Source: Thermotogae bacterium
Lineage (GTDB): Bacteria > Thermotogota > Thermotogae > Mesoaciditogales > Mesoaciditogaceae
Assembly (NCBI GenBank): GCA_026988035.1
Contig: JALSLY010000045.1
Location: 1-53,625 of the forward strand
Length of the DNA stretch: 53,625 bases
Direction: 5' to 3'
The position numbers and the translations under genes were made by a program. The notes under the pieces were generated by a model. That model was not told the DNA's origin, did not search any database, and saw only the letters and a list, made by a program, of their open reading frames with translations. Shown in pieces: positions 5,585-53,625 of the stretch (its first letter is position 1; every line of letters starts with the position of its first letter).

Positions 5585-6196
5585 TTATGCCTCCTTGTAA
5601 AATTTGTATTTCCCAACGAATTCACTTCTCCTTGAAACTTTAAGCTGCTCAGCTATGATTATGGATTCTAATTGTTTTATAGAAATTTGAACATCATGAT
5701 TAACAATAAGATAGTCAAATTTTGATATCTGTGATAACTCGTAACGTGCATCTTCTAATCGCTTTTTGAAATTCTTCTGGTTTTCTGTATGTCGCTTTAT
5801 GAGTCTTTCTTTCAATTCTTGGAAAGAAGGCGGAGCAACGAAAATGAGAACAGAATCCTTTATCTGGCGTTTAACACTTCTTGCCCCCTTTACATCTATG
5901 TCGAGAAGGACATTTGCTCCTTTGTTCATCTGAGATTCTACATAACTTTTCGAAGTGCCATAAAGATGGCCATGCACCTCTTGCCATTCCAAAAAGTCCT
6001 TTTTCTTGATCAAATCTTTAAAGGTCGACTCATCAACGAAGAAATAATCCTTTCCTTCTTCTTCTCCTTTACGTTTTGGACGCGTTGTGTAAGAGATGGA
6101 GAACGCCAAATCTTCTAAATTTTTCAGAACGCCTTTAACTATAGTAGTTTTTCCGGCTCCTGATGGGCCGCTCATAATAAAGAGAATGCCTTTCAT
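5585..6196 (-). CDS. gmk: guanylate kinase
   Basis: A 203-residue kinase that converts GMP and ATP to GDP and ADP. Walker [10 protein letters not shown] is at residues 9-17, the GMP-binding region has [20 protein letters not shown] near 35-54, and the [15 protein letters not shown] motif follows. Length is typical. The start codon overlaps the stop of the RemA-like gene, and rpoZ follows after two bases. Confidence 0.96.
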
Positions 6197-50912: not shown

Positions 50913-50935
50913 TACCATCCAGATTTTGGATGGTA
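50913..50935. promoter_or_regulatory. upstream activator site 1 (inverted repeat)
   Basis: TACCATCCA (50913-50921) and TGGATGGTA (50927-50935) are perfect 9-base arms with a 5-base spacer, centred 76 bases before the -12 element of the following sigma-54 type promoter. The same repeat recurs before fabF. It would suit a dimeric enhancer-binding protein. No binding-protein gene is in the window. Confidence 0.65.
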
Positions 50936-50984
50936 AGCGTTGTTATAAATGCATAAAGATCGTAAAAGTAAGGGCTTTTATATC

Positions 50985-51001
50985 TTGGCACAAATTTTGC
51001 T
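50985..51001 (+). promoter_or_regulatory. sigma-54 (-24/-12) promoter of the HprK/PEPCK-like gene
   Basis: TTGGCACAAATTTTGCT matches the sigma-54 consensus TTGGCACGnnnnTTGCT at all defined positions except one (A for G). GG and GC are exactly 12 bases apart. Transcription would start near 51012, so the leader is only about 16 bases long, including the AAGGGAAG ribosome site. No sigma-70 promoter of comparable quality was seen. Confidence 0.7.
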
Positions 51002-51027
51002 AACATTTTTAAGGAAAAAGGGAAGTG

Positions 51028-52728
51028 ATGAAATTGTCAAGAACAATCATAATAAACGGTTCCATTGTTGATAATTATGCCCAGGTTATGTCTAATCCTA
51101 TTTTTGAAAGAATTGTAAGAGAATACATCAAAATGCTTGAACTTAACCATTCTTCGGCATTAAACGCGATTTCTGAGTTCAGAGAGAATAAGTTTTGCTA
51201 TAAAAAGGTTGCCGAATTCTTGTATTCTTTGACGTTCAAGCCCATTGGCAAAACAGGGTATAAAGTGAAACAAAGCTATCTTCAGGAGTTTGTTGAAGGT
51301 CTTTACGATTTTTGGAGGGGAAAACACAGATTCATAATCAAGCATGAAAGATATCTCAAGGATTTCGGCTCGAGAAACAACGCAATAAAATCTGCTGAGT
51401 TCGTTGGAGAGGTCTTTGAGAAGACGGCAAGAGGCATTTATCGGGCGCTGGAAAACAATATTTCTTCAAATACGGAGAAAATTTTACGGCAGGTTCCAAG
51501 TGGTGCTCAAGTTATTTTTATTGTTGATAAATCGAGAATTCAACGAGAAGAAAGGATGAAATACAATTGGATGTACTCTGTTCCTTTTGTTTGGAACGTT
51601 ATATATGAACCACCAGTGATTTTCTATACAAAATCCAACAAAAGAAAGGGTGTATTTCCAGTAATTAATGAAAGAATCCTGGACAGGATCGATCTTGATA
51701 AAAAGTGGTACGCATTACCGCTGCATGTTGGGAATCTCATGATTTATGTATATGTCAATTCTGAATATCTTTGTCATGCCGCTGGTCTTGCCAATCTTTT
51801 TGAGATAGCTACTCCCAATGAACTAAGAACACCCGATGGAGTTGTTGTATTTGGTCTTCCGCTTGAAGTTGTAGGTAAAGATTATGTTAATGGAGTCGTG
51901 TTTAAAGATACACTCTACGCAGGTGTCATACCCAAAATAATAGAGAATGATTATTTTGGATATGCTAAAAAAATAGTCCTTACGGTTCACAATCTGATCA
52001 TGATTGACAGATCAAAGCTTCCAATTCATGGCTCTCTTGCAACTATAAAACTCAAGAACGGAAAGAGCGCAACTGCCATGTTTGTTGGAGATAGTGGCGC
52101 TGGGAAATCTGAAACGCTTGACGCTTTAGGAAGGCTTTCGGAAGTGTCAGAACTTGAAGTCATAATAGATGATATGGGTTCACTAAGCATTGAAGATGAA
52201 AAGGTTGTGGCATATGGAACCGAAACGGGAGCATTTGTGAGACTCGATGATCTTCCACCTGGATACGCTTACGCAAACATAGACAGAAGTCTTCTTATGA
52301 ATCCAGATCAGAACAATGCGAGGGTTATAGTACCTTATGGAAATTTTGACAAAATTATTCAGCCTACTCATATTGATTTCTTTTTTTATGCTGACAATTA
52401 CACAAAAGTCAATTCAAATGAAGAAAGAGTATGCTTTTTTAACGATCCTGATGATGCACTTGAAATCTTTTCAAAGGGTGCTAGAATGGCCAAAGGAACG
52501 ACCTCGGAAAAGGGAATGTCCTATTCGTACTTTGCCAATCCTTTCGGTGCAATTCAAAGAAGAGAAATTCACGAGAAAATAGCGAGGACTTATATGTATA
52601 AAATGTTTGAAACGGGTGTAAAAGTGGGAGAAATAAGAACTATGCTCGGAATAGAGGGATATGAAAAAGACGGACCTCATTTAGCTGCTCAGGCTCTTTT
52701 GAAAGTAATTTCAAAATTCAAAGCTTGA
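51028..52728 (+). CDS. P-loop protein of the HPr kinase / PEP carboxykinase superfamily
   Basis: A 566-residue soluble protein. The first half is helical and unrecognised; a beta-rich domain with GVVVFGLPLEVVGKDYVN follows. The nucleotide site is GDSGAGKSETLDALGRL with the P-loop G354-S361, and EVIIDDMGSLSIED (D381, D382) follows 20 residues later, as in HPr kinase (GxSGxGKSE ... ADD). It lacks the PEPCK substrate motifs. It could be a kinase of an unknown protein or metabolite. Its gene has a sigma-54-like promoter shared in pattern with fabF. Confidence 0.72.
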   Translation: MKLSRTIIINGSIVDNYAQVMSNPIFERIVREYIKMLELNHSSALNAISEFRENKFCYKKVAEFLYSLTFKPIGKTGYKVKQSYLQEFVEGLYDFWRGKHRFIIKHERYLKDFGSRNNAIKSAEFVGEVFEKTARGIYRALENNISSNTEKILRQVPSGAQVIFIVDKSRIQREERMKYNWMYSVPFVWNVIYEPPVIFYTKSNKRKGVFPVINERILDRIDLDKKWYALPLHVGNLMIYVYVNSEYLCHAAGLANLFEIATPNELRTPDGVVVFGLPLEVVGKDYVNGVVFKDTLYAGVIPKIIENDYFGYAKKIVLTVHNLIMIDRSKLPIHGSLATIKLKNGKSATAMFVGDSGAGKSETLDALGRLSEVSELEVIIDDMGSLSIEDEKVVAYGTETGAFVRLDDLPPGYAYANIDRSLLMNPDQNNARVIVPYGNFDKIIQPTHIDFFFYADNYTKVNSNEERVCFFNDPDDALEIFSKGARMAKGTTSEKGMSYSYFANPFGAIQRREIHEKIARTYMYKMFETGVKVGEIRTMLGIEGYEKDGPHLAAQALLKVISKFKA

Positions 52729-52758
52729 CCACGCAAATCTTGTATATCAAATCTTGAT

Positions 52759-52781
52759 TACTATCCAAAATGTGGATGGTA
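52759..52781. promoter_or_regulatory. upstream activator site 2 (inverted repeat)
   Basis: TACTATCCA (52759-52767) and TGGATGGTA (52773-52781), with a 5-base spacer and one mismatch. The right arm is identical to that of site 1. Its centre is 74 bases before the -12 element, close to the 76 of site 1. Confidence 0.65.
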
Positions 52782-52828
52782 ATCGTTTGTTGCAAATGTA
52801 AAAGCCTTGGAAATAGGCGATTCTAATT

Positions 52829-52845
52829 TTGGCACGAGTTTTGCT
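52829..52845 (+). promoter_or_regulatory. sigma-54 (-24/-12) promoter of fabF
   Basis: TTGGCACGAGTTTTGCT is a complete match to the sigma-54 consensus. After it comes AACAT, as after the first site. Transcription would start near 52856, about 50 bases before the fabF start. Confidence 0.72.
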
Positions 52846-52904
52846 AACATAATAGGAATTATTTTGGAATTTTTTATTTAATTGAGAAGAAAGGGTGAAA
52901 GAGC

Positions 52905-53625
52905 TTGAAAAATGATAAAAGAGTTGTCGTAACGGGAATAGGAGTTGTTGCTCCAAGTGGAGTTGGGAAAGAAGCCTTTTGGAGCGGATTGCTTTCAGCT
53001 AAGAGTTTTGCATCACGTATAACATCTTTCGATCCTGAAGGATATAGAACTCAAATAGCAGCCGAGGTAAAAGATTTTGATCCATCCAAATATATGAGTC
53101 CTAAGAGCGCAAGACGATATGATCGATACACTCAACTTGGAGTAGCAGCCGCTAATGAAGCAATTAATGATTCTGGTCTCTCAAAAGAACTTCTTGAAAG
53201 AGCAGGAGTGATCGTTGCATCGGGAGTTGGTGGAATAGTATCTCTTGAAAGAGAAATAGAAGTTTTGAACTCTAAAGGGCCTTCTTGGGTAAGTCCTCTT
53301 TTGGTTCCAGGATCAGTAGTTAATGCACTTTCAGGAACAATAGCCACCTTGCATGGTGCAAAGGGGCCAAATTTTGGAACAGTGAGCGCATGTGCTTCAA
53401 GTGCACATGCCATGATAATGGCTTGCAATTTGATAAAAAACGAAGGAGTAGATGTAGTAATAACTGGTGGTGCTGAAGCGCCAATTTCCCCTATAGCCGT
53501 TGCTGCCTTTGGAAACATGAAAGCGCTCTCAACACGCAATGACGAGCCCGAAAAGGCTTCTCGTCCATTTGACAAAGATCGTGATGGCTTTGTAATGGGC
53601 GAGGGTGCCGGTGTTCTTGTCTTCG
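52905..53625 (+). CDS. fabF: beta-ketoacyl-ACP synthase II (5' part; runs off the window)
   Basis: The first 240 codons of a KAS II. It starts RVVVTGIGVVAPSGVGKEAFWSGLLSAKS, has FDPSKYMSPKSARRYDRYTQLGVAAANEAI, and the active-site cysteine C163 in VSACASSAHA, the same position as in E. coli FabF; ITGGAEAPISPIAVAAFGNMKALST and FDKDRDGFVMGEGAGVL follow. It elongates acyl-ACP in fatty-acid synthesis. TTG 52905 has AAGGGTGA six bases upstream. The catalytic histidines lie beyond the window's end. Its sigma-54-like promoter is unusual for a core lipid gene. Confidence 0.93.
   Translation, partial: MKNDKRVVVTGIGVVAPSGVGKEAFWSGLLSAKSFASRITSFDPEGYRTQIAAEVKDFDPSKYMSPKSARRYDRYTQLGVAAANEAINDSGLSKELLERAGVIVASGVGGIVSLEREIEVLNSKGPSWVSPLLVPGSVVNALSGTIATLHGAKGPNFGTVSACASSAHAMIMACNLIKNEGVDVVITGGAEAPISPIAVAAFGNMKALSTRNDEPEKASRPFDKDRDGFVMGEGAGVLVF

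Follow-up and report, generated by a model that had tools for sequence, protein, structure and literature searches.

In the DNA described here, sigma-54 promoters with a dedicated dyad probably drive both the FAS-II operon for fatty acid synthesis and a gene for a protein with the fold of phosphoenolpyruvate carboxykinase (PEPCK), with the NtrC-type regulator EBP41 as the most likely activator. The DNA is a stretch of 53,625 nucleotides, called the window, which is contig C45 of a genome of 2.04 Mb in 86 contigs (G000). The genome belongs to family f1, which its named relatives place as Mesoaciditogaceae.

The proposed mechanism works as follows. Both sites would be RpoN promoters, each with an activator dyad about 75 bp before its -12 element. 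The first would transcribe the gene for the PEPCK-fold protein and the second the genes fabF-degV-fabZ-fabH-fabK-fabD-acpP. When a partner histidine kinase is stimulated, where membrane or lipid state as the stimulus is a guess, the regulator would become phosphorylated, and phosphorylated EBP41 on the dyad would then make contact with the sigma-54 holoenzyme through DNA looping and use ATP to open the promoter. The features of the window that enter the scheme are the following.

50913..50935, no strand: putative activator-site dyad 5' of the PEPCK-like gene, TACCATCCA-GATTT-TGGATGGTA; the same site is found in G012 and G013
50985..51001, plus strand: sigma-54-type -24/-12 promoter of the PEPCK-like gene, TTGGCACAAATTTTGCT; predicted start near 51012
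51028..52728, plus strand: PEPCK-fold protein, 566 aa; the start may be TTG at 51034, from orthologue comparison
52759..52781, no strand: putative activator-site dyad 5' of fabF, TACTATCCA-AAATG-TGGATGGTA; position kept in f1 and f4
52829..52845, plus strand: sigma-54-type -24/-12 promoter of the fab operon, TTGGCACGAGTTTTGCT; predicted start near 52856
52905..53625, plus strand: fabF (beta-ketoacyl-ACP synthase II), at the head of the FAS-II operon; truncated by the contig edge

The original prediction was that two sites share TTGGCAC-N5-TTGCT with correct spacing and that each has an inverted repeat 74-76 bp before its -12 element, and sequences and coordinates were both found as claimed. 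At both sites the GG and GC elements are correctly spaced and match the -24/-12 consensus, and both promoters agree with the RpoN consensus of G. sulfurreducens, TTGGCACGGTTTTTGCT (PMC2725144). Counted to the C of the -12 GC, the centre of the dyad is 76 bp away at the PEPCK-like gene and 74 bp away at fabF, and the fabF dyad departs from symmetry at a single position. A scan for sigma-70-like promoters on the plus strand gave none in either of these two intergenic regions.

The machinery that such promoters need is present in the genome. It has rpoN, the absence of which had been named beforehand as refuting, and the 424-residue product contains the activator-interacting, core-binding and DNA-binding domains together with the RpoN box SRRVVTKYREELMIPSSKRRR. 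Six enhancer-binding proteins were found, and five of them carry the GAFTGA motif that had been proposed as a search target. The rpoN search gave no match to the RpoN DNA-binding domain in the T. maritima control, in line with the earlier statement that rpoN is not standard in Thermotoga; the window comes from another family. One enhancer-binding protein (L073:7384-8748, contig C76) lacks a GAFTGA match and is encoded near secretion- or pilus-like genes.

The fabF promoter is conserved in two families. A sigma-54 promoter is located 5' of fabF in all ten sampled f1 genomes, with scores of 24-25.5 of 25.5, and in both genomes of f4, a second Thermotogota family, with scores of 23.5 and 24.5. 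When the upstream sequences were shuffled, none of 200 shuffles reached the observed score in any of 11 loci (nine from f1 and two from f4). In the promoter alignment the TTGGCA and TGC/GC columns are invariant, while the spacers have low information. Among the fab clusters sampled from f3 and f5-f11, where several loci lacked a recognisable fabF start motif and were left unscored, none had a sigma-54 promoter in front of fabF, and many of these families are rpoN-positive. G064 has a weak sigma-54 site (22.5), 262 bp 5' of fabF.

Consider now the position of the dyad in relation to the promoter. Its centre and the C of the -12 element are 73-76 bp apart at both the PEPCK-like gene and the fab operon in G000 and G012, at the PEPCK-like gene in G013, and at the fab operon in G014 and G015. 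The fab dyad of G013 is at the same distance by motif match, and here both arms are altered together, GTCCA/TGGAC. Genus g2 has a weak dyad at -73 to -79, with a more distinct one near -107 in G008 and G009; in G016 the dyad is weak, with mainly one arm kept. The f4 dyad reads differently, roughly TTGGAAT-N3-ATTCCAA, and is centred at -75 and -74. Judged from sequence, a fixed position combined with a changing sequence is as would be expected of the site of a looping activator, and a terminator would not need it. Both f4 genomes (L154 and L156) have, in addition, a second dyad (AACTGC...ATGG...) some 31 bp 5' of the fabF -12 element, which is possibly the site of a second regulator.

The candidate activator is encoded on contig C41, where fabG precedes the genes of a histidine kinase and, after it, of EBP41, a protein with a receiver domain, an AAA+ domain with GAFTGA and a Fis-type helix-turn-helix (HTH). 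The kinase has two membrane helices, the loop between them being about 8 residues long, and then a PAS domain. Such an architecture leaves no room for an outside sensor and fits sensing of the membrane or the cytoplasm. The order fabG-kinase-EBP41 is common to genera g1, g3 and g4 and to f4, and the f4 genome G003 has fabG, kinase, regulator and fabF side by side; g2 has the kinase-regulator pair with fabG not adjoining. In the tree, f1 EBP41 and the f4 regulator form sister groups (93/96), with the C59 regulator apart, and the identity of EBP41 is 51% to the f4 regulator as against 42% to the C59 regulator. EBP41 hardly varies in its recognition-helix region within f1, and f4 has a different sequence there, in parallel with the dyads. 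Gene order, phylogeny and the co-variation of site and helix thus make EBP41 probably the best candidate for the activator.

A different enhancer-binding protein, for instance the PAS-domain protein of contig C31, could bind the dyad at promoters that are sigma-54 dependent all the same, with EBP41 regulating something else. There are six such proteins in the genome to choose from, the C31 type is also present in f4 and more widely, and in f1 separate contigs carry EBP41 and the fab operon. The gene order of EBP41 is, however, the only one tied to fab genes (to fabG in f1, to fabG and fabF in f4), and it is the HTH of EBP41 that co-varies with the dyad, so that we consider binding by another activator rather unlikely. 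Still less probable, with a few chances in a hundred, is that the dyad binds a repressor or a lipid-responsive factor and that sigma-54 is activated from solution or via another site. It is true that FapR and FabT, which regulate fatty acid synthesis globally, are repressors (PMC5052256), but the dyad is about 50 bp 5' of the promoter, does not overlap it and keeps the constant place expected of an activator site.

The palindromes might also have nothing to do with the promoters and instead belong to the genes before them, yigZ and the PEPCK-like gene, as terminators or as hairpins in the RNA. They are found 31-43 bp 3' of the preceding stop codon, the hairpins predicted at both of them are strong (z of -4.3 and -5.3), and of the two dyads a terminator scan gives the fabF one, where the T-run is interrupted, and not the other. 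The dyad of the PEPCK-like gene, on the other hand, is without a proper T-run, the position of the dyads is tied to the promoter rather than to the upstream gene, as seen also from the different f4 sequence in the same place, and it is the sequence that is kept and not pairing alone. Termination as the main role of the palindromes was rejected, and we hold the reading as a whole to be very unlikely. Finally, the likeness of the two promoters and palindromes could be due to chance, or merely reflect that one intergenic region was recently duplicated. Aligned over their length, the two regions in the window have a mean column identity of 77%, and one may therefore have been copied from the other. 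Against this as the explanation stand the conservation upstream of fabF in two families, at a level that shuffling never reached, and the invariant promoter elements amid spacers of low information. We find this explanation hardly credible: the pattern of conservation already contradicts it, and the resemblance goes beyond chance.

The preferred reading, sigma-54 promoters with EBP41 as activator, describes a small regulon. The pattern TGGCAC-N5-TTGCW has seven matches in the whole 2.04 Mb genome, and the five besides the window sites were rejected as further promoters, all of them being within coding frames. When the palindrome was searched for in the genome with at most three mismatches, the two window sites and three matches with three mismatches were obtained, and the backwards control gave three; above control level the palindrome belongs to these two promoters only. 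A composite pattern (TCCA-N5-TGGA, 48-78 bases, TGGCA-N6-TNGC) was then scanned over 103 Thermotogota genomes. Seven of its matches, spread over four Mesoaciditogaceae genomes, were 5' of fabF or of the PEPCK-like gene, and five other, scattered matches were at control level (backwards control, seven). No dyad or sigma-54 site was found 5' of the EBP41 operon, and autoregulation of this operon, or control of rpoN or of a second PEPCK-like copy by the same dyad and promoter, was rejected, as no sites were found.

In all f1 genomes examined the operon has the order fabF-degV-fabZ-fabH-fabK-fabD-acpP. In the window's genome a contig break falls within fabF, and C67 (L212) resumes at about residue 254, with the same genes after it. 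Every f1 genome has a single fabF (E <= 1e-80). With fabF at the head of a FAS-II operon and its promoter conserved in two families, the idea of an enhancer-dependent lipid regulon in the original prediction gains support. The protein encoded between fabF and fabZ in all f1 genomes has a weak similarity to the DegV C-terminal region (L062:13259-13999 and counterparts; 24.2 bits, below the cut-off), and the degV-like member is the least conserved of the operon. DegV/FakB proteins are fatty acid binders.

Sigma-54 promoters need an activator to be transcribed at all and usually serve conditional functions, such as nitrogen metabolism, motility and the cell exterior. A core housekeeping pathway under a sigma-54 promoter would be unusual, and a sigma-54 two-component regulon aimed at core fatty acid synthesis would be the new aspect of the present system, which is compact, with two promoters and one candidate regulator. 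A stronger proposition, to which we give somewhat less than an even chance, is that in the Mesoaciditogaceae and f4 the sole FAS-II operon is transcribed by sigma-54 only, gated by an NtrC-type system that senses membrane state and by ATP hydrolysis, and that rpoN would be essential for growth. The cultured Athalassotoga saccharophila has both the fab promoter and the regulator, which makes direct testing possible.

The arrangement resembles NtrC/AtoC-type systems such as AtoS-AtoC of E. coli in its membrane histidine kinase, its receiver-AAA+-Fis regulator, its distant dyad and its -24/-12 promoter. AtoC has a role in short-chain fatty acid catabolism (PMC3162934), while the target here is de novo synthesis, the dyad is different and the regulator genes are linked to fabG. 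DesR, the regulator of DesK-DesR in Bacillus subtilis, is of the NarL type and has a sigma-A-dependent desaturase promoter as its target; here the regulator is NtrC-type, the sigma factor is sigma-54 and the target is a whole FAS-II operon. What the two systems have in common is that membrane lipids are adjusted by two components (PMC5052256). The likeness to FapR and FabT is the global control of fab genes, and the difference is that these act as repressors whereas the promoter here would depend on an activator. A review describes six regulators of fatty acid synthesis, FadR, DesR, FabR, DesT, FapR and FabT, none of them as sigma-54 dependent (PMC5052256). As far as their accessible text goes, papers on sigma-54 regulons name lipid A and beta-oxidation targets and no fab operon (PMC3162934, PMC12316311, PMC4641369, PMC2725144). 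Loss of the sigma-54 factor RpoN1 alters branched-chain fatty acid composition in X. campestris, and in the accessible part of that study a sigma-54 promoter on a fab operon is not shown (PMC7280030). No published fab operon with sigma-54 wiring was found in a search that covered the subscription literature thinly, and this absence is not proof.

The protein encoded between the two promoters had been predicted as HprK/PEPCK-like and as part of the regulon. Its modelled structure (pLDDT 89.3) matches ATP-dependent PEPCK in Foldseek with an E value of 2e-18 and a TM-score of about 0.45, and the best 50 matches listed are all PEPCK. The motifs YFGYAKK, LPIHGS, GDSGAGKSET, IIDDMGS and NARVIVP are present, which we take to correspond to PEPCK active-site residues. 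The model thus points to an ATP-PEPCK fold, with the P-loop and neighbouring motifs kept; compared with ATP-PEPCK itself, identity is only about 15-20% and the N-terminal part is different. The protein does not reach curated PEPCK cut-offs (24.8 against 26.5 bits for PF01293, and far below for NCBIfam). Membership of the HprK family is not supported, with no family match in profile searches and no HprK among the 50 structure matches listed. Of the prediction there remain the PEPCK fold and the promoter, with the gene as a secondary target.

The PEPCK-like protein occurs in 81 of the 103 Thermotogota genomes and, at about 36% identity, in some Bacilli/Tenericutes MAGs. The sigma-54 promoter on its gene is found only in g1 (G000) and g3; G014 and G015 lack the gene, and in G016 (L161 around 5687-6052) remnants of it remain between its own promoter and fabF, so that the promoter now reads towards fabF. 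Because the promoter is limited to two genera and the gene is missing or decayed in three genomes, the PEPCK-like gene appears from these comparisons to be a secondary, often lost target of the regulon.

Three minor observations may be added. In families f8 and f9 of the phylum scan, the RpoN frames are mostly short, about 297-335 aa, with matches to the DNA-binding domain, and parts of their N-terminal regions may therefore be missing or diverged. The second PEPCK-like copy in the window's genome (L060:1470-3188, contig C31), 60% identical, shows no sigma-54 site and is followed by ABC-2 type transporter genes. In g3, a perfect inverted repeat, AAAATGCCGT/ACGGCATTTT, lies shortly 5' of the -24 element in the promoters of the PEPCK-like gene (L063:10873 and L062:9430 regions).
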